From assembly GCA_004298045.1 (NCBI GenBank), contig SCRM01000019.1, positions 62,001-126,000 of the forward strand: DNA of 64,000 nucleotides, written 5' to 3'. The translations under genes were made by a program, and so were the position numbers. The notes under the pieces were generated by a model that was not told the origin of the DNA, ran no database searches, and saw nothing but the letters and a program-made list of their open reading frames with translations. Shown in pieces: positions 2,372 through 30,675 of this stretch. The stretch's first letter is position 1; every line of letters begins with the position of its first letter. This DNA is from Rhodanobacter sp. (GTDB lineage: Bacteria > Pseudomonadota > Gammaproteobacteria > Xanthomonadales > Rhodanobacteraceae).

Positions 2372-4825
2372 TCAGAACTTGTACGACAGACGCGCAAACC
2401 ATGCCGCGCCGTTCAGGCCGAACTGCACCGCCTCGTACCAGAAGCCGTTGTCGGTTTCGTTCGGATCCTGCCGGGTCGGGTATTTGCCAAACACGTTGTG
2501 GCCACCCACCGTGAGTTTCATCGCCGGCGTGAAATGGTAAGTGACGCCGACGTCGGCCGAGGTCTTGTCGGCGTAGTGCGCGTTCGGCACCGGCGGGCCG
2601 GAGAACGTGCCCAGCGTCATCGGGCCGAAGTAGATGAACTTGACGTCGGTATCCCACTTGCCCAGCGCGTAGTTGAAGCCGAGCACCGCCTTCTCGCGCG
2701 GGGCACCGTTGGTGATGAACAACGCGTCGCGCTCGCCCAGGAGTGAATCCTCGCGCCCCGCCAGCGACGGCGGCGTATGCACCTTCTGGATCGTCGTCTC
2801 GGTGTGGTTGAAGGAAAGGAAACTGTCGAGCCGACCGGCGCCGAGCGTGGTGTGGTAGTCGGCGGTGAGGTCGAAGCCCTGGGTGCGGGTATCCACCGAG
2901 TTCACGAAGAACTGCGCCTCGCCGATGTTCTGCGCCGCCAGCACGCTGCCGATGTTCGGATCGCTGGTGTCGAACGTGCCGCTGAGCACGATGCGGTGCT
3001 TGATGTCGATGCGGTAGCCGTCCACGGTGATCGACAGGTTGTCGAGCGGAGTCCAGGTAAACCCGAGCGTGGCGCTGCGCGACTTCTCCTGCTTGAGCGG
3101 CGGGATCCCGGCGGCATTCGCCAGCGGGCTGCCGTTCGGCGCGATCACCACGTTGGTCTGCACCCCGCTCACGAAATCGCTGAACGTGGAGGAAAAGTAG
3201 CGCTGCTGCAGGGACGGCGCCCGGAAGCCGGTGCTCACCGACCCGCGCAGGAGGAAATTCCCGTTGACGTGGAACGCGCCGGAGAGCTTGCCGATGGTGG
3301 TGGAGCCGAAGTCGCTGTAGTCCTCGTGGCGGATCGCCTGATCGGTCATGAAGCGATCGGTCCAGTCGGTTTCGACATCGACATACAGCGCCCAGCTGTG
3401 GCGGCTCTTGTTGGTCGCATCGCTGGGCTGGAAGCCGGGAAAACCCTGGCTGCCGGCGTTGCCGCCGCCGGGGCCGTCGGCGTCGATCCACGAGCCGACC
3501 GAGCCCGGGTAGATCTTGTACTGCTCGCGCCGGAACTCGCCGCCAAACGCGACGTTCACCCCGGACATCCAGCCGTCGAACAGCTTGGTGGCGTCAAAGT
3601 TGGTCGTGTCCTGGCCAAACGAAAAACCGCCCGCGCCAAACACGTTGGGACTCACGCCGGCGCCACCCAGTTCAAGATCGAGGTTGGCCATCGACGCGTT
3701 CAGCGTGTGCCGGATGGTGTCCATCAGGCGGTTGTAGCCAAGCGTCTGCGACGCGTCGAAGCGCCAGTCGCGCCACATCCACCAGATGCCGGCGGTAGCG
3801 TGGCGATCCTGGATGTACGGGTTGATGTACGGCACGAAGCCATCCGGATACATCGCTGCCGAGTTGCGCGCCGGGATGTCGTCCGAGCCAATGCCTCCGC
3901 GGGCGAACGCCGCCGACGACACGGCGCGGTTCTGGATGCCGCCGTCGAAATACACATGCGCATCGCTGGCGATCGGCACGTCGCCGTTCAAATAGAAGGT
4001 GTTCTCGTGTACCGAAGCGTCGCCAATGGTACGCAGCGGATCGAGCGCCGCCGAGGTGCGGTTCGAGCGGCCGCGATCCTGGTGCTGCACGGTCATCGCG
4101 ATGACGCCGTCGTTGCCGGTGGCAAAGCCGCAGTAGGCCGAGGCGAGGTAATCCTGGCCATCGCCCTGGGTGTACTGGTTGTAGCCCGCCACCGCCTCGC
4201 AGCCCTTGCTGCGCTTGAGCACGACGTTGACCACCCCGGCGATCGCATCCGAGCCGTACTGCGCCGCCGCGCCGTCGCGCAGCACCTGCACTTGGTCCAC
4301 GGCAAGCAACGGGATGGTATTGAGGTCGGTGCCCGAATCGCCGCGGTTGCGCGCGCCGAACAGGTTGACCAGCGCCATCTGGTGCAGCCGTTTGCCATTC
4401 ACCAGCACCAGGGTTTGATCCGAGCCCAGCCCGCGCAGCGCCGGGGTGTCCTCCGAATCGGCGTTGTCGGAGCCGGTCTGGTAGCCGGATACCAGCGACG
4501 GCACCTTGTAGCTCAAGGTTTCGGTCAGCCCTTGCTGGGCCCCCTGCGTGGCTGCGTTGTTCATCGGCAGCACGTCGACCGGTACCGGCGAGTCGGTATA
4601 GGAAACCTGCCCCGTGCGGCGGGTGCCAACCACCGTCACCTCTTGCAGGTTGGTGGCTTTCACGTTGCCTTTTTGCGCCTGGCCGGTACTCGGCGTGGCT
4701 GATTGCGGCGCATCCGCGTCGCCCCCCGCAGCCGGCATCGCGCTGGCTATCCCGGTGCCAAACAATCCCGTCAACCCGCAGCTGGCCAGTGCCAGCGCGG
4801 TCATGCGCATGCGCCGAATATCCAC
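2372..4825 (-). CDS. TonB-dependent outer-membrane receptor
   Basis: An outer-membrane active transporter of about 817 residues. The start is taken as the GTG at 4825 because GGGGAG lies 8 bases upstream and the protein then begins with a normal signal peptide (MRMTALALAS...GIASA). A TonB-box-like stretch (LQEVTVVGTRR) follows, then a plug domain with ALRGLGSDQTLVLVNGKR and VLRDGAAAQYGSDAIAGVVNVV, then a 22-strand-type barrel ending in the terminal aromatic signature LSYKF. The ligand is not evident; no siderophore, B12 or polysaccharide-use genes are adjacent. It lies 145 bases downstream of mgtA on the same strand, and I found no convincing terminator between them. TonB-dependent receptors are numerous in Xanthomonadales. 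Confidence 0.93.
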   Translation of the reverse strand: MDIRRMRMTALALASCGLTGLFGTGIASAMPAAGGDADAPQSATPSTGQAQKGNVKATNLQEVTVVGTRRTGQVSYTDSPVPVDVLPMNNAATQGAQQGLTETLSYKVPSLVSGYQTGSDNADSEDTPALRGLGSDQTLVLVNGKRLHQMALVNLFGARNRGDSGTDLNTIPLLAVDQVQVLRDGAAAQYGSDAIAGVVNVVLKRSKGCEAVAGYNQYTQGDGQDYLASAYCGFATGNDGVIAMTVQHQDRGRSNRTSAALDPLRTIGDASVHENTFYLNGDVPIASDAHVYFDGGIQNRAVSSAAFARGGIGSDDIPARNSAAMYPDGFVPYINPYIQDRHATAGIWWMWRDWRFDASQTLGYNRLMDTIRHTLNASMANLDLELGGAGVSPNVFGAGGFSFGQDTTNFDATKLFDGWMSGVNVAFGGEFRREQYKIYPGSVGSWIDADGPGGGNAGSQGFPGFQPSDATNKSRHSWALYVDVETDWTDRFMTDQAIRHEDYSDFGSTTIGKLSGAFHVNGNFLLRGSVSTGFRAPSLQQRYFSSTFSDFVSGVQTNVVIAPNGSPLANAAGIPPLKQEKSRSATLGFTWTPLDNLSITVDGYRIDIKHRIVLSGTFDTSDPNIGSVLAAQNIGEAQFFVNSVDTRTQGFDLTADYHTTLGAGRLDSFLSFNHTETTIQKVHTPPSLAGREDSLLGERDALFITNGAPREKAVLGFNYALGKWDTDVKFIYFGPMTLGTFSGPPVPNAHYADKTSADVGVTYHFTPAMKLTVGGHNVFGKYPTRQDPNETDNGFWYEAVQFGLNGAAWFARLSYKF

Positions 4826-4970
4826 GGACTCTCCCCAGTGAGCCAAACGTGGGCGCACGCTACCACGCCATGTTTGTCCATCGCCAGCAGACATTCGTCA
4901 AAGTTTGCGCGGACCGCGGACGCGGAGGGCGCCGACGCCGGCAACTACCGCATCGCGCGGGTTCCGGCAC

Positions 4971-7601
4971 CTACAGCCAGCGGCCGTAGCGGCGCATGTA
5001 GAGCATCTTCACCAATTGCGTCAGCACGCAGTAGGTCAGGACGGTGGCCGCAATCCAGGCGAAAAACGCCGGCGGCAGCGGCAGCATGCCGAGTTTGGCG
5101 CCAATGTCGAGATAGGGAATGGCGATGCCGATGGCGATGATCGCGGTGGTGAGCCCCAGCACCGGCGCCGCCGCCGCGCTCTGCAGGAACGGAATGCGGC
5201 GCGTGCGGATCATGTGCACGATCAAGGTTTGCGTGAGCAGGCTTTCGACGAACCAGCCCGACTGGAACAGCGCCTGATGCGTGCTCGAATTGGCGTCGAA
5301 CACGTGCCACATCAGCCAGAACGTGGTGATGTCGAAAATCGAGCTGACCGGCCCGATCCACACCATGAAACGGCCGATGTCGCTGGCATCCCACTTGCGC
5401 GGCTTGCGCAGGTAATCGTCGTCCATGCGGTCGAACGGAATCGACAGCTGCGAAATGTCGTAGAGCAGGTTCAACACCAGGATCTGCAGCGGCAGCATCG
5501 GCAAGAACGGCAGGAACGCGCTCGCCACCAGCACGCTGAACATGTTGCCGAAGTTCGAGCTGGCGGTCATCTTGATGTACTTGATGATGTTGCCGAAGGT
5601 GACCCGCCCTTCCAGTACGCCCTCCTCCAGCACCATCAGGTTTTTTTCCAGCAGGATGATGTCCGCCGATTCCTTGGCGATGTCGGTGGCGGTGTCCACC
5701 GAGATGCCGACGTCGGCGTCGTGCAGCGCGGGCGCGTCGTTGATGCCGTCGCCAAGGAAACCCACGGTGTGGCCCTGGCGCTGCAGCGATTTCACCACCG
5801 CGGCCTTTTGCAGCGGCGACATCTTGGCGAACACGACAGTGCGTGCGACCAGCGCATCGAGCGCGTCGGCGTCGAGCGCTTCGACATCCCGGCCCTGCAC
5901 CGAATGGGTGACATCCAGCCCCACCTCGCGGCAGATCTTGCGCGTCACCGCCTCGTTGTCGCCGGTGATGACCTTGACCGTCACGCCATGCTGGTGCAGC
6001 GCCGCGATCGCGGTGGCAGCGGAGTCCTTCGGCGGGTCGAGGAACGCGAGACAGCCCACCGCGGTGAGCCCGGCTTCGTCCGCCACGCTCCACGCGCGCT
6101 CACTGGCGGGCGCACGCCGCACCGCCACTACCAGCACGCGCAAGCCGTCCTCATTCAAACGGTGCGTCATCGCGCGGATGTCGCGGCGACGCTCGTCGGT
6201 CAGCGGCGCCACCTCGTCACCCACCTGCGCGAAGCTGCAGATCGCCAGCATCTCCTCGACCGCGCCCTTGCAGATCAGGAGATGCTCGCGCTCGTCGCGC
6301 GCCACCACCACCGACATGCGTCGGCGTTGGAAATCGAACGGAATCTCGTCCACCACGCGGTATTGCGCCGCGACCGGTTCGAGATCGCGGTGGGTGAGCA
6401 CCGCCTTGTCCATCAGGTTCCTGAGGCCGGTCTGGAATCGGCTGTTCAAGTAGCCGTATTCGAGTGCGTCCTCGGACTCTTCGCCGTTCAAGTCCAGGTG
6501 CCGCTCGAGCACGATCCGGTCCAGCGTGAGCGTGCCGGTCTTGTCGGTGCACAGCACGTCCATCGCGCCGAAGTTCTGGATCGCGTTGAGCCGTTTCACC
6601 ACCACCTTGCGCTTGGACATCGCCAACGCGCCCTTCGCCAGGTTCGCGGTAACGATCAGCGGCAGCATCTCCGGCGTGAGGCCGACCGCCACCGACAGCG
6701 CAAACAGGAACGCCTGCATCCAGTCGCCCTTGTCCAGCCCGTTGACCAGGAACACGATCGGCACCATCACCGCCATGAAGCGGATCAGGAGCCAGCTCAC
6801 CGAATTCACGCCGCGGTCGAAGCTGGTTTGCACCGCCTGCCCGGTCATGCTGTGCGCCAGCGAGCCGAGGTAGCTGCGCCCGCCGGTCGCCACCACCACC
6901 GCGGTCGCCGCGCCCGACACCACGTTGGTGCCCATGTAGCAGATCGTCGGCAGGTCGAGCGGCGCTGCCGCCGTGGCCCCGGCGGCATGCGTCGGCGCCA
7001 CTTTTTCCACCGGCAACGACTCGCCGGTGAGGATCGCCTGGCTGACGAACAGATCCTTCGCGGTCAGCAGGCGCAGGTCGGCCGGCACCATGTCACCGGC
7101 CCCCAGGTGCACGATGTCGCCGGCCACCAGCTCACCCACCGGCACTTCGATCTGCTCGCTGTGGCCGTCCGAGGCACGACGCGTCACCGTGGCGGTGTTG
7201 CGCACCATCGCCTTGAGCTTTTCCGCCGCGCGCGAGGAGCGGTACTCCTGCGCAAAGCTCAGCAGCACACTGATGCCGACCATCACCGCAATGATGATCG
7301 GCCCGGTCAGATCACTGCGATCGGTGGCCAGTTGCACACCGGCCAGCACCAGCAGCACCACGATGAACGGGTTCTTGAACGCCCGCAGCAACTGCAGCGA
7401 CCAGTGCGGCGGTTTCTCATGCGCAACCTCGTTGGCGCCGTCGCGATGCAGGCGTTCGTTGATGCGCGCCTCGTCAAGGCCTCGCACCGAGGTGTCGAGC
7501 GCGCGCAACAGCTCGTCGCCGGCGCGGAACGCATCGTCCGCCGCAGGCACATGCGCGGGTGCCACGACTTTCTCGGTCATGCGGGAAAAAGGCTTGTTCA
7601 T
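4971..7601 (-). CDS. mgtA: Magnesium-translocating P-type ATPase MgtA
   Basis: An 876-residue inner-membrane P3B-type ATPase importing Mg2+ (E. coli MgtA is about 898). The N-terminal cation-ATPase domain is followed by the actuator motif LTGESLPVEK, the phosphorylated Asp in CTDKTGTLT near residue 352, and the hinge motif GDGINDAPALHDADVGI. Several hydrophobic segments occupy the C-terminal third. The gene is preceded on its own strand by more than 600 bases without a large gene, holding a promoter-like pair, a structured region, a 65-codon leader frame and a strong terminator hairpin, which suggests transcription attenuation as known for mgtA in Salmonella (there through leader MgtL and PhoP). 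It lies downstream of recG on the same strand. Confidence 0.95.
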   Translation of the reverse strand: MNKPFSRMTEKVVAPAHVPAADDAFRAGDELLRALDTSVRGLDEARINERLHRDGANEVAHEKPPHWSLQLLRAFKNPFIVVLLVLAGVQLATDRSDLTGPIIIAVMVGISVLLSFAQEYRSSRAAEKLKAMVRNTATVTRRASDGHSEQIEVPVGELVAGDIVHLGAGDMVPADLRLLTAKDLFVSQAILTGESLPVEKVAPTHAAGATAAAPLDLPTICYMGTNVVSGAATAVVVATGGRSYLGSLAHSMTGQAVQTSFDRGVNSVSWLLIRFMAVMVPIVFLVNGLDKGDWMQAFLFALSVAVGLTPEMLPLIVTANLAKGALAMSKRKVVVKRLNAIQNFGAMDVLCTDKTGTLTLDRIVLERHLDLNGEESEDALEYGYLNSRFQTGLRNLMDKAVLTHRDLEPVAAQYRVVDEIPFDFQRRRMSVVVARDEREHLLICKGAVEEMLAICSFAQVGDEVAPLTDERRRDIRAMTHRLNEDGLRVLVVAVRRAPASERAWSVADEAGLTAVGCLAFLDPPKDSAATAIAALHQHGVTVKVITGDNEAVTRKICREVGLDVTHSVQGRDVEALDADALDALVARTVVFAKMSPLQKAAVVKSLQRQGHTVGFLGDGINDAPALHDADVGISVDTATDIAKESADIILLEKNLMVLEEGVLEGRVTFGNIIKYIKMTASSNFGNMFSVLVASAFLPFLPMLPLQILVLNLLYDISQLSIPFDRMDDDYLRKPRKWDASDIGRFMVWIGPVSSIFDITTFWLMWHVFDANSSTHQALFQSGWFVESLLTQTLIVHMIRTRRIPFLQSAAAAPVLGLTTAIIAIGIAIPYLDIGAKLGMLPLPPAFFAWIAATVLTYCVLTQLVKMLYMRRYGRWL

Positions 7602-7681
7602 GCAACGCCACCGCGGCTCTTGCTGCCGGCGTCGCGGCAGCGCGCGCCAGTCGGCGCGACCATTGGACGAAAGAAACGATC

Positions 7682-7713
7682 AAAAGGCGGCAGCCGCCAT
7701 GCCGGCGGCTGCC
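7682..7713 (-). terminator. Intrinsic terminator inside the mgtA leader (attenuator candidate)
   Basis: On the minus strand GGCAGCCGCC and GGCGGCTGCC form a perfect 10-bp stem with a 5-base loop, followed by GCC and four T residues. It sits 80 bases before the mgtA start and 50 bases after the stop of the leader frame, so if it forms it would end transcription before mgtA. That position is typical of an attenuator. The U-tract is short, so efficiency is uncertain. Confidence 0.7.
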
Positions 7714-7765
7714 ACGCGCGGTCACCTGCGCGCTGGCGATGGCCAGTCGCGGCGCCTTACCGCCA

Positions 7766-7963
7766 TCACGCGGCGCGCGCCGACGCGTGCGGCAACGAAC
7801 CAGTCGCAGCAACGGGGGCCGCCGGGGCTGCGCTCGCCCCCAGGGCAGCGCCCGTAAGCGGCGCCGGCACGGTCACGACAAACTCGCGTACGCGGGCATC
7901 ACGCTGCGCACCGAACGGGCCGCGGGAGGCCCGCAGACGAAAAACATCGCGAAGGAGCTTCAT
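7766..7963 (-). CDS. Putative mgtA leader peptide (65 aa)
   Basis: A 65-codon frame starting at an ATG with a good Shine-Dalgarno (GGAG, 7 bases upstream), between the promoter region and the terminator hairpin that precedes mgtA. The first half is basic (MKLLRDVFRLRASR); the second half is Ala/Pro-rich with Pro spaced through VPAPLT and APAAPVA. Salmonella mgtA is controlled by translation of a short proline-containing leader, MgtL, so an analogous role is plausible, but there is no sequence similarity that I recognise. Its Shine-Dalgarno can pair with an upstream segment (7970-8002). It could be a chance frame in GC-rich DNA; ribosome position and start signal favour a real translated leader. 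Confidence 0.4.
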   Translation of the reverse strand: MKLLRDVFRLRASRGPFGAQRDARVREFVVTVPAPLTGAALGASAAPAAPVAATGSLPHASARAA

Positions 7964-7969
7964 GGCTCA

Positions 7970-8120
7970 TCTCCAAAACAAGGCGCACAGCGCCGTTGGA
8001 GAGAGCCGGCGTTTCCTAGTCCAGGAAAAGACCGGCCGACCGCTGGCGGCTGCCGCAGGCAATCAGCTTGTGATGCAGTGCCGACACCCGAAGCAAGCAG
8101 GTGCCGACGTTGCGACTAGG
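7970..8120 (-). promoter_or_regulatory. Structured 5' leader of mgtA
   Basis: Two pairings are visible on the minus strand. A long-range stem joins CGTTT..CCTAGTC (about 8113-8126) with GACTAGG.AAACG (about 8009-8021), 12 pairs with a 2-base bulge, enclosing about 90 bases that contain further short stems such as GGCACC/GGTGTC. A second hairpin pairs TCTCCAA (7996-8002) with TTGGAGA (7970-7976) around an inner GGCGC/GCGCC stem, and would bury the leader-frame Shine-Dalgarno. I do not recognise the Mg2+ M-box consensus. This could be a metal-sensing or translation-coupled leader (inference). Confidence 0.4.
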
Positions 8121-8161
8121 GTAAACGTCCATATGCCTTGAGAAGTCAGGACAGGATGTCA

Positions 8162-8180
8162 CTGCGGACGGCGTCCGCAG
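8162..8180. promoter_or_regulatory. 19-bp palindrome next to the mgtA promoter
   Basis: CTGCGGACG and CGTCCGCAG form a perfect 9-bp inverted repeat with one central base. It lies just downstream of the -10 element, at about +3 to +21 of the predicted transcript. It could be a repressor operator or a 5'-end hairpin. It has no T-run, so it is not an evident recG terminator. Confidence 0.45.
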
Positions 8181-8189
8181 GACGCGCGT

Positions 8190-8218
8190 ATTGTGCTGGC
8201 CGAGGCCGCGCGCGTCAA
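8190..8218 (-). promoter_or_regulatory. Predicted sigma70-type promoter for mgtA leader
   Basis: On the minus strand TTGACG (8213-8218) and CACAAT (8190-8195) are separated by 17 bases, matching 5/6 and 4/6 of the consensus. The pair begins 15 bases after the recG stop codon and points into the mgtA leader, so mgtA need not depend on read-through from recG. Confidence 0.5.
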
Positions 8219-8233
8219 CGACTGGAAACTGAA

Positions 8234-10339
8234 TCAGGCGCGTGCAAAGCGCGCCGCGCCGCCCACCCAGCGCGCCATGAGCAGGTCGGCCTGATGCGGG
8301 TAGTCGGCCAACAGGCGTTCACCGACGCGCTGCACGGCGGGCAGCAGGTGGGCGTCGCGGGTGAGGTCGGCGATGCGGAAGCTGAGCTGGCCGGTCTGGC
8401 GGGTGCCGAGCACCTCGCCGGGGCCGCGCAGCTCGAGATCCTTCTCCGCAATGCGGAAGCCGTCGCTGGTTTCGCGCATTACCGCCAACCGTTCGCGCGC
8501 GAGCCGGCCGAGCGGCGGCTGGTAGAGCAGCACGCAATTGGAGGCAATCGCGCCGCGCCCCACGCGTCCGCGCAACTGATGCAACTGCGCCAGGCCCAGG
8601 CGCTCGCTGTTTTCGATCACCATCAGGCTGGCGTTGGGCACGTCGACGCCAACCTCGATCACGGTGGTGGCAACCAGCACGGCAATCTCGCCAGCCTGGA
8701 ACGCGTCCATCACCGCCTGCTTTTCCTTCGGCTTCAGCCGCCCGTGGATCAACCCGACGCGACAATCCGGCAACGCGGCGGCAAGTTCCGCATACGCGAC
8801 TTCGGCCGCCTGCGCACGCAGCTGCTCGGACTCCTCGATCAGCGTGCACACCCAGTACGCCTGCCGGCCCTCGCCGCAGGCGACGCGGATGCGCTCGATC
8901 ACTTCGACCCGGCGTGCATTGGACACCGCCACCGTCTGCACCGGCGTGCGCCCGGGCGGCAGCTCGTCGATCACCGAAACGTCGAGATCGGCATACGCGC
9001 TCATCGCCAGCGTGCGCGGGATCGGGGTGGCGGTGAGCACCAACTGATGCGGCACGCTGCCGTGCGCACGGTCGACGCCCTTGTCGTGCAGGGCAAGCCG
9101 CTGCTGCACGCCGAAACGATGCTGCTCGTCGACGATCACCAAGCCGAGCCGCGTGAACGCCACGCCTTCCTGCATCAGCGCGTGGGTGCCGATGGTGATC
9201 GGTGCGCCGTCCGCAACCCGGCGCATTGCCGCCTGACGCGCCTTGCCCTGCTGCTTGCCGGCCAGCCATTCGACCGCTACATCGAGCGACGCGAGCCAGT
9301 GGCGAAAATTGCGCAGATGCTGCTCGGCAAGCAGTTCGGTCGGCGCCATCAGCGCCACCTGCCAGCCGGCCTCGACCGCAGCCAGCGCGGCCAGTGCCGC
9401 GACGATGGTCTTGCCCGAGCCCACGTCGCCCTGCACCAGCCGCAGCATCGGGTGTGGACGCGCCAGATCCGCGCACACTTCGGCGTCCACCCGCCGCTGC
9501 GCCGCGGTCAGCGCGAAGGGCAGGCCCGCAAGCAGGCGGGCGCGTAGCGCGCCGTCACTGGCAAACGCCGGCGCCTGCCGTCGCTGCACCGCGGCGCGCA
9601 TGCGCTTCAGGCTCAGGTGCTGGCTCAGCAACTCCTCAAAAGCGAGCCGCTGCTGTGCCGGATGCCGGCCTTGCAGCAGCAGGTCGAGTCGTGCATCCGG
9701 TGGCGGGCGATGCACCGTGAGCAGGGCCTCGCGCAGCGAGGCGAGGCCGAGCGGTTCGCACAAGGCGGCAGGGATCAGCTCGAGCTCCGTTTCATCCGGC
9801 AGCAGCGCCAGCGCCTTCGCAATCACGCCGGCCAGGCGTTTCTGGCCGAGGCCCTCGGTAGTCGGATATACCGGACTCAGCCGGTCCTCGACTACCACCG
9901 TTTCGCCGGCGCCGATGCGCCGATACTGCGGGTGCACCATCTCGAAACCGAGCGCCGCATGGCGCACTTCGCCGAAACACAAAAGCCGCGCGCCGACCGC
10001 CAACTGCTCCGCCTGCGCGCGATTGAAGTGGAAAAAACGCAGCTGCAGGCTGTGTCCGGTGTCGTCGCCGATCGCCACCCTGAGCTGCGGGCGATAGCGG
10101 AAGCCTTTTTCCACCGCCTCCACCACACCGACCACCTGCGCATCTTGGCCAACACGCAGGTCGGACAGCGCGGTGATGCGGGTGCGATCCTCATAGCGCA
10201 GCGGCAGGTGGAACCACAAATCCTGCACGTGGTCCAGGCCCAGCTTGTGCAGCAGCGCCTGCAGCGCAGGGCCGACGCCGGGCAGCGTCGACACCGCCTG
10301 GAGGCCGGCACCACCGAGTGCGGGCGCACCATCGCTCAT
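8234..10339 (-). CDS. recG: ATP-dependent DNA helicase RecG
   Basis: RecG is a superfamily 2 helicase that remodels stalled forks and branched DNA. The 701-residue product matches the usual 690-700. The N-terminal wedge/OB region contains LWFHLPLRYEDRT; the motor carries Walker A GDVGSGKT, the DEQH box (VIVDEQHRFGVQQR), SATPIPRT-like TATPIPRT, and the C-terminal helicase motifs VLVATTVIEVGVDVPNA and QLRGRVGRG. The ATG at 10339 (MSDGAPALGG) is chosen because it lies 16 bases after the ridA stop and matches the family N-terminus (LPGVGPALQALLHKLG). It ends the rpoZ-spoT-ridA-recG group. Confidence 0.96.
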   Translation of the reverse strand: MSDGAPALGGAGLQAVSTLPGVGPALQALLHKLGLDHVQDLWFHLPLRYEDRTRITALSDLRVGQDAQVVGVVEAVEKGFRYRPQLRVAIGDDTGHSLQLRFFHFNRAQAEQLAVGARLLCFGEVRHAALGFEMVHPQYRRIGAGETVVVEDRLSPVYPTTEGLGQKRLAGVIAKALALLPDETELELIPAALCEPLGLASLREALLTVHRPPPDARLDLLLQGRHPAQQRLAFEELLSQHLSLKRMRAAVQRRQAPAFASDGALRARLLAGLPFALTAAQRRVDAEVCADLARPHPMLRLVQGDVGSGKTIVAALAALAAVEAGWQVALMAPTELLAEQHLRNFRHWLASLDVAVEWLAGKQQGKARQAAMRRVADGAPITIGTHALMQEGVAFTRLGLVIVDEQHRFGVQQRLALHDKGVDRAHGSVPHQLVLTATPIPRTLAMSAYADLDVSVIDELPPGRTPVQTVAVSNARRVEVIERIRVACGEGRQAYWVCTLIEESEQLRAQAAEVAYAELAAALPDCRVGLIHGRLKPKEKQAVMDAFQAGEIAVLVATTVIEVGVDVPNASLMVIENSERLGLAQLHQLRGRVGRGAIASNCVLLYQPPLGRLARERLAVMRETSDGFRIAEKDLELRGPGEVLGTRQTGQLSFRIADLTRDAHLLPAVQRVGERLLADYPHQADLLMARWVGGAARFARA

Positions 10340-30422: not shown

Positions 30423-30483
30423 CCTGCAAGCCCGACAAGCGGATGCTTTCTGCCGGGCAACAGCCTAAACTGGCGTTGGCGTT

Positions 30484-30662
30484 TTCTGCGGTGTTCGCCG
30501 GCACACTCTTACATTTGCCTTGTTCCTAAATACGGCCCCGGGTCGGCTTTACCATCGGTCGTTGCGCATGTCCGCCACGTGCGGGAAGCCTTGAGACCAT
30601 GTGGCCCTCCCACCTGATCCTCGTGGATCAAGGTCGTTTGGTGGGCAGCGGCATTGCGGTTG
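30484..30662 (+). ncRNA. ssrS: 6S RNA
   Basis: 6S RNA binds the sigma70 holoenzyme and mimics an open promoter, reducing transcription in stationary phase. The ends pair (CTGCGGTG at 30486-30493 with CATTGCGG at 30652-30659), and the interior has the conserved landmarks: TGTTCGCCGGC near the 5' end, GCATGTCCGCC...GTGCGGGAAGCCTTGAGACC in the middle, and ATCAAGG with a GGGCAGCGGCAT stretch near the 3' end. A -10-like TAAACT lies at 30466-30471. The position between zapA and the 5-formyltetrahydrofolate cyclo-ligase gene is the classic one. Exact ends are approximate. Confidence 0.92.
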
Positions 30663-30675
30663 ACGCCACCTTCCT

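Follow-up and report, generated by a model that had tools for sequence, protein, structure and literature searches.

The window, the 64,000-nucleotide stretch of DNA analysed here, carries recG and mgtA on its minus strand, and the leader region between the two genes runs from 8233 down to 7602 with its elements ordered from high to low coordinate (Table 1). An earlier note on this DNA had proposed an attenuation layout for the region, beginning with a good promoter and a 19-bp palindrome. The promoter is indeed present (TTGACG-17-CACAAT, 8218-8190), and where the palindrome was placed there is a hairpin (8183-8158), in which 11 pairs were found; GC-rich hairpins analogous to it were seen in relatives by eye only. 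The note had overlooked a short frame, uORF1 (8132-8016), as well as the use of the element beyond mgtA. When the whole leader RNA was folded, a z of -3.3 was obtained and 0/100 shuffles were equally stable.

Table 1. Genes and elements of the mgtA leader in the window. SD, Shine-Dalgarno sequence.
Feature	Position	Strand	Remark
recG	10420-8234	-	upstream neighbour; the leader lies between recG and mgtA
Promoter of sigma-70 type, TTGACG-17-CACAAT	8190-8218	-	mean 0.0 in shuffles
5' hairpin at the start of the leader RNA, 11 pairs	8158-8183	-	folding
uORF1, 38 codons, MDVYPSR...GLFLD, stop TAG	8016-8132	-	overlaps structured RNA
P1, 5' strand CCTAGTC (uORF1 codons 5-7)	8114-8120	-	
Hairpin P2, within uORF1	8080-8108	-	covariation count
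Hairpin P3 and extension, within uORF1	8033-8055	-	covariation count
Hairpin P4, alternative to P1 and the P5 base	8005-8036	-	part of the uORF1 stop in the loop
P1, 3' strand GACTAGG (includes the uORF1 stop codon)	8015-8021	-	
Hairpin P5/P6, pairs the stretch directly before the uORF2 start codon (SD hairpin)	7964-8007	-	
uORF2, 65 codons, M-K-L-L-R-D...V-T-V-P-A-P-L	7766-7963	-	
GC-rich 13-pair hairpin (7715-7687) followed by TTTT, intrinsic-terminator-like	7681-7715	-	not conserved
mgtA, Mg2+-translocating P-type ATPase	4971-7601	-	TIGR01524 equivalog, 1285.9 bits (cut-off 610.75)

The leader was matched in all 14 other genomes of the genus (15/15 with the window's own), and when the best 80 mgtA relatives were taken from the named genome collection, nhmmer found it at 74 of their loci. 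The six loci without an nhmmer match are one from the family (L062) and five from other groups (L109, L110, L111, L112 and L114). L062 (1700-2560) carries a Rhodanobacter mgtA, and the leader was not found in the 2500 upstream bases examined. We considered a conserved recG-mgtA linkage as the cause of the conservation and ruled it out, because tblastn (E 1e-10) matched the last 300 residues of RecG at 0/80 of the mgtA loci, with as much as 2500 bases of flank included; the leader is thus retained with mgtA and not owing to its neighbour. The alignment contains 82 leaders after seven duplicates were collapsed and a second copy (L029) was omitted, and the uORF1 counts use 81 of them, L069 being truncated by a contig start; all these counts are of copies, not of independent events. 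A TTGAC box and a NANAAT box at a spacing of 16-18 nt, no more than 150 nt upstream of uORF1, were present in 81/81 aligned leaders. The earlier note had asked whether the stems and the leader frame are conserved in relatives, and both are. By comparison among relatives, the leader is real and strongly conserved. Weak matches on the opposite strand (19.5 to 32.3 bits) were regarded as mirror images of hairpins. Of several matches to the promoter region at other places in the genome, the one examined (L024, a 28-base repeat) lies antisense to a coding sequence, which we take to be dus-like, and was regarded as chance.

Of 398 genomes from the order, 101 were matched by a covariance model built from the mgtA leaders (R1); 100 of these belong to the window's family and one is a weak match outside it, and many genomes carry more than one copy. 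A second covariance model, covering all classes of leader (R2), matched 157 of 233 family genomes and, among 369 genomes drawn from the class, only the window's own; the R1 search of the order and both R2 searches were run under Infernal's stricter filters. An mgtA homologue (E 1e-100) was present in 9 of 21 tested genomes, which were 20 listed family genomes of the 297 without an R1 match and the one with the weak outside match, and the closest of these homologues is 58% identical to the window protein.

From the match lists we chose 45 further loci, excluding L193 (a partial match) and weak partial matches, and assigned the first gene behind each copy to the reference protein that it matched best, the references having been drawn from these loci and from the window. 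This gene belonged to the AdoMet decarboxylase class at 15 loci, RND adaptor at 10, MgtA at 7, Na/Pi transporter at 5 and porin at 3, with one TonB receptor, one Nramp and three loci given no class, among which L178 and L190 reach the end of their contigs; the copy at L192 precedes a protein that, by its sequence, looks like a Na+/H+ antiporter. Within the decarboxylase class the next gene was Nramp, followed by a porin-like gene, at 9 loci and a TonB receptor at 6. One representative of each was scored with Pfam (AdoMet_dc 37.5 bits with a cut-off of 25, Nramp 263.1, Na_Pi_cotrans 167, HlyD_D23 152), and the NCBIfam models for the decarboxylase and the Nramp protein gave scores under their cut-offs. 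The best PDB match of the Nramp protein was 7qia with 178.3 bits, the next chain scoring 65.5. The structure 7QIA has been described as EleNRMT, a transporter of Mg2+ and also of Mn2+ in which Trp229 replaces the histidine of classical family members (PMC10115441); our query has a tryptophan aligned with W229, the residue having been counted by hand. Judged by these neighbours, the element is not specific to mgtA. The TTGAC box was found at 44/45 of the further loci and the stricter two-box pattern at 17/45; the exception, L161, has lost both the uORF1 stop and the TTGAC box.

uORF1 begins with ATG GAC in 81/81 aligned leaders, and an in-frame TAG follows after 37-39 codons in 78 of them, the remaining three stopping at 27 or 41 codons. 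The 81 contain 75 distinct uORF1 DNAs, and the 126 rows available in all contain 116. Asp2 was present in 126/126 rows, hence in 116/116 distinct copies, a proline at position 4-6 in 125/126 and a further acidic residue at positions 3-10 in 75/126; the EPDP motif was not found in uORF1. The frame was maintained across length differences of whole codons and across a change of the stop from TAG to TGA. The hexamer CCTAGT, formed by the Pro5-Ser6 codons CCT AGT, was kept in 80/81 aligned leaders, and both codons are seldom used in a small sample, three long GC3-rich frames taken from the window (CCT in 3/161 Pro codons, AGT in 7/89 Ser codons).

These codons also form one strand of P1, in which CCTAGTC (8120-8114) pairs with GACTAGG (8021-8015). 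It corresponds to the long-range 12-pair stem of the earlier note: the stem exists with 7 pairs, and 12 in a row were not recovered. In the mgtA class P1 (CCTAG:CTAGG) was near-invariant, 60 or 61 of 62 rows being identical at five of six pairs, so that covariation cannot test it within this class. Across the classes it was mostly preserved, as seen from alignments by eye and from the stop-partner counts. Among the 45 further loci, the partner and the stop were CCTAGT with TAG in 27, CCCAGT or CCCGGT with TGA in 10 and other combinations in 8; the stop and its P1 partner change together, TAG being present in 27/29 CCTAGT loci and TGA in 9/11 CCCAGT loci. By these counts, uORF1, whose codons 5-7 can pair with its own stop region, is the core and the most conserved part of the leader.

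Covariation was counted in an alignment of 62 of the 81 leaders (A1). The fraction of paired cells was 98.4% in P2, 94.0% in P3, 95.9% in P4, 95.9% in P5 and 93.3% in P6, with two-sided changes at 3/10, 4/10, 4/11, 2/6 and 6/7 pairs, respectively. P4 uses strands of P1 and of the P5 base, which is the layout of an attenuator. Structure A (P2, extended P3, P5 and P6) had 95.5% of its cells paired and 15 two-sided pairs against 7.6 in shuffles, with 0/500 shuffles as high on any measure, and structure B (a local stem at the uORF1 start, P2, P3, P4 and P6) had 93.0% paired and 16 two-sided pairs against 7.6, with 0/500 shuffles reaching the observed values, although related sequences may outscore shuffles even without structure. 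The weakest helix of structure B was the local stem at the uORF1 start, with 86.0% of cells paired. Controls in which the pairing was slid gave 23-52% paired, and given these controls, together with the changes on both sides of pairs in P6, P5 and P4, a chance origin of the pairing signal is unlikely. The hairpin that the earlier note described as hiding a Shine-Dalgarno sequence (8007-7964) is supported by the covariation of P5/P6.

The pN/pS of uORF1 was 0.89 in the mgtA class (0.89, 0.89 and 0.99 over three classes), so that the constraint acts mostly on the RNA and most uORF1 residues are free of protein-level constraint. Synonymous sites conserved like replacement sites are what speaks for a ligand-binding riboswitch, responding to a metal or a polyamine, in which P1-P4 would be the aptamer, P5 the expression platform and uORF1 a passenger frame. 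The near-invariant CCTAGT and a multi-helix domain closed by P1 point the same way, as does the two-sided change of P3 from G-C to A-U (pair 87-100, 6/62 rows), which swaps two amino acids, Asp to Asn and Ser to Leu. A passenger frame, however, agrees poorly with a start codon and Asp2 kept in every distinct copy and with a stop that stays in frame through the changes of length and stop codon described above, and no Rfam riboswitch was matched; we regard this reading as unlikely.

Folding with parts of the RNA masked, as a ribosome would mask them, bears on how the alternative helices could exchange. In the naked RNA of 62 leaders the mean pairing probability was 0.77 for P1, 0.03 for P4b and 0.93 for the P5 base, and when codons 1-9 were masked it became 0.00 for P1, 0.62 for P4b, 0.24 for P4a and 0.78 for the P5 base; in the window leader alone this mask changed the P5 base from 1.00 to 0.97. 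Masking the stop region brought the P5 base to 0.00, which is a direct consequence of the mask and depends largely on the assumed footprint. The mean SD accessibility in 78 leaders (those with a uORF1 of 27 or 41 codons omitted) was 0.26-0.28 for every ribosome position within uORF1. A mask 15-24 nt past the uORF1 stop raised the mean accessibility of the start codon from 0.28 to 0.40-0.47, and that of the SD reached only 0.26-0.34. From these calculations, a P1-to-P4 helix switch is plausible, and the step from the switch to an open SD appears weak in equilibrium folding. Early ribosome pausing as the sole cause of SD opening is unsupported by equilibrium folding; pausing was kept in the model set out below because P1 does yield to P4 on masking. 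Simple helix-energy sums had given a clean two-state switch with which the full ensemble disagrees, and the sums were not used as evidence.

The 65-codon frame of the earlier note (7963-7766) is uORF2, whose SD is hidden by P5. In 82/82 leaders, with no selection on TVP, a frame of 40-86 codons that includes TVP starts at the aligned ATG, and in 81 uORF2 frames the TVP residues were invariant with synonymous variation. The residue after TVP is A, Q, R, P or E and is followed by P or S; pN/pS, in rows chosen by the TVP motif, was 0.33 at the VTVPAPL motif and 0.76 overall. In the decarboxylase class RPP (RPPSR) is carried by the frame that follows the element at 14/15 loci, and in a separate analysis the uORF2 rows of that class were chosen by RPP. 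The Na/Pi leaders L154 and L157 have no uORF2, and there the hairpin conceals the transporter's own SD; a third Na/Pi leader (L165) has a 27-codon frame between the element and the gene, and L176 and L188 have no ATG frame at the uORF2 point.

The conserved motifs raise a second alternative, in which termination-coupled translation is the whole device: a ribosome ending uORF1 would open P5, and arrest by the nascent uORF2 peptide (TVPxP or RPPSR) would be the sensor that controls mgtA. The gain in start-codon accessibility under a mask past the uORF1 stop is what this predicts, and both the constancy of TVP with its low pN/pS and the RPP of the decarboxylase loci accord with it. We nevertheless hold it to be quite improbable, since two Na/Pi leaders dispense with uORF2, the uORF2 tails differ by class, and TVP lies well before the uORF2 stop in many rows.

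Several features of the second frames were noted by the way. In the Rhodanobacter RND/porin class (L147-L151, L180, L182 and L189) an HGG motif occurs close to the end of the second frame, as DHGG in seven loci and as HHGG in L189; L185 is without an ATG frame there. A W....G.L.C.W-like stretch occurs in the decarboxylase-class uORF2 of L158-L162, L164, L177, L179, L181, L183, L184 and L186 and, by eye, also in the tail of some mgtA-class uORF2 proteins, and its presence in both uORF2 classes suggests a common origin.

Between uORF2 and mgtA, counts were made at 66 of the 71 loci (out of 81) where the mgtA start could be placed. A TGGCCTCC-like box (window 7746-7733, minus strand) was present in 43/66; in many rows it can fold into a small hairpin whose loop resembles an anti-SD. 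With RNAalifold, no consensus structure emerged for the stretch from uORF2 to mgtA. Hairpins of at least 7 pairs, regardless of T residues, were found at 59/66 loci as against 0.56 of shuffles, and a terminator T-run (at least 5 T in the 8 nt after the longest hairpin of at least 7 pairs) at 3/66, the window included. Classical transcription attenuation at an intrinsic terminator, which the earlier note had proposed, can point to the 13-pair hairpin at 7715-7687 and its TTTT in the window. With the T-run so rare while the remaining leader is conserved, we rejected an intrinsic terminator as the conserved output and consider this explanation very improbable. What stands of the proposed attenuation layout is the conserved leader frame and stems; the terminator of the window exists and is not conserved, and as a general output it is unsupported.

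In a search of Rfam nothing reached gathering score for the leader, and seven further loci scanned had no match either; the M-box was absent at this score from the whole window, and the lack of similarity to it stated by the earlier note holds, for the leader, with the other Rfam families as well. In the window interval 7000-9000 there were four weak sub-threshold matches to unrelated families (E 3 to 5), and the M-box (ykoK) was absent from the matches up to E 5. The Rfam model of the enterobacterial mgtA leader (Mg2+ sensor) had no match in the window or the seven further loci. No publication on the leader was found in the open-access literature among the matches listed, and the control switch is apparently undescribed.

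Among published systems, the closest mechanism found is that of Salmonella mgtQ, in which the mgtB ribosome-binding site is freed through residues Asp2 and Glu5 of a small uORF together with helices 1:2/3:4 versus 2:3 (PMC8092293); the resemblance is one of working, not of membership. Both leaders have a short Asp2 frame upstream of a Mg2+ transporter, and in both the uORF overlaps alternative helices, one of which hides the next SD. Translation of mgtQ frees the hidden site, and translation of uORF1 may do so too; folding shows the change from P1 to P4, with an SD opening that is small or absent. mgtQ has 8 codons and lies between mgtC and mgtB, whereas uORF1 has 38 codons and follows its own promoter; in the present leaders another uORF separates the switch from the gene, and there are several target genes. 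MgtL, a peptide whose early acidic residues are described to destabilise ribosomes at low Mg2+ (PMC11282234), likewise belongs to an mgtA leader; the present leader differs in having no Rfam match, two uORFs and, in uORF1, Asp2 and Pro5 but no EPDP motif. The mgtM/mgtP leader of Salmonella mgtCBR, likened here by its description, also combines two short frames and alternative stems in one Mg2+-transporter leader but acts by transcription attenuation with ATP and proline signals (PMC3641672). In the pe20 M-box leader of Mycobacterium tuberculosis, a hairpin of the Mg2+ leader controls the SD of a conserved uORF before the operon, and uORF translation is proposed to keep Rho/polarity away; that leader carries an M-box aptamer, whereas none was found in the window leader (PMC12810186). 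M-boxes are also reported before Nramp-related Mg2+ transporters (PMC4072509).

Taking these results together, we think it somewhat more probable than otherwise that the element is a lineage-specific, cis-acting leader family of the Rhodanobacteraceae that works as a uORF-driven translational attenuator for Mg2+ homeostasis. With no ribosome on uORF1, the RNA would stay in P1 and P5 with the next frame off. At low Mg2+, a ribosome would pause or lose stability on the initial uORF1 codons (Asp2, Pro5 and the rare CCT-AGT) and mask P1, so that P4 could form, and a ribosome arriving at the uORF1 stop would cover P5 on its 5' side. In either case the start of the following frame would become open, this frame being uORF2 or, for two Na/Pi leaders, that of the transporter, and translation of uORF2 would then allow mgtA expression, most simply by keeping Rho/polarity away; we infer the direction of regulation. 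The genes controlled (MgtA, an NRMT-type transporter, polyamine synthesis and a porin) suggest Mg2+ as the signal, and the RND pumps and the Na/Pi and Na+/H+ transporters, which are not obvious low-Mg2+ genes, fit it less directly.

This attenuator is supported by the conserved loci, the uORF1 start and stop, the co-change of the stop and its partner, the covariation of both alternative structures, the folding under masks, the constancy of Asp2 and the proline, the genes controlled, and the analogues mgtQ, MgtL and the mycobacterial M-box leader. Counting against it are an SD that barely opens in folding, the pN/pS of uORF1, the near-invariance of P1, the weak stem of structure B, the incomplete occurrence of the TGGCCTCC-like box, the leaderless L062, and L161 with its lost uORF1 stop and TTGAC box.

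A wider reading, to which we give tentative and less than even credence, is that a translation-abort uORF switch became a portable Mg2+ module within one bacterial family and was duplicated before several gene sets. In each place the module would combine one type of promoter with uORF1, the start-stop helix, the SD hairpin and a class-specific second leader peptide, and its targets would be MgtA, an NRMT-type Mg2+ transporter with AdoMet decarboxylase and a porin, RND pumps and Na/Pi transporters. If this is true, a regulon would be run by ribosome stability instead of a repressor or an aptamer: the uORF-based Mg2+ controls compared here are single enterobacterial leaders, and a portable version would show ribosome-based sensing organising a regulon. 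Given the list of genes, the Mg2+ hypothesis is open to direct testing, and the Nramp-type and RND genes of this soil bacterial family become candidates for Mg2+ physiology.

Two other features of the window were recorded. A gene for a TonB-dependent receptor (2372-4894, minus strand) lies about 76 nt past mgtA on the same strand; it had no tblastn match (E 1e-10) at the 80 related mgtA loci, and it matched the receptor beside the leader copy L158 over 77 residues only, with 45% identity. A 6S RNA was found at 30480-30666 on the plus strand with 73.5 bits.
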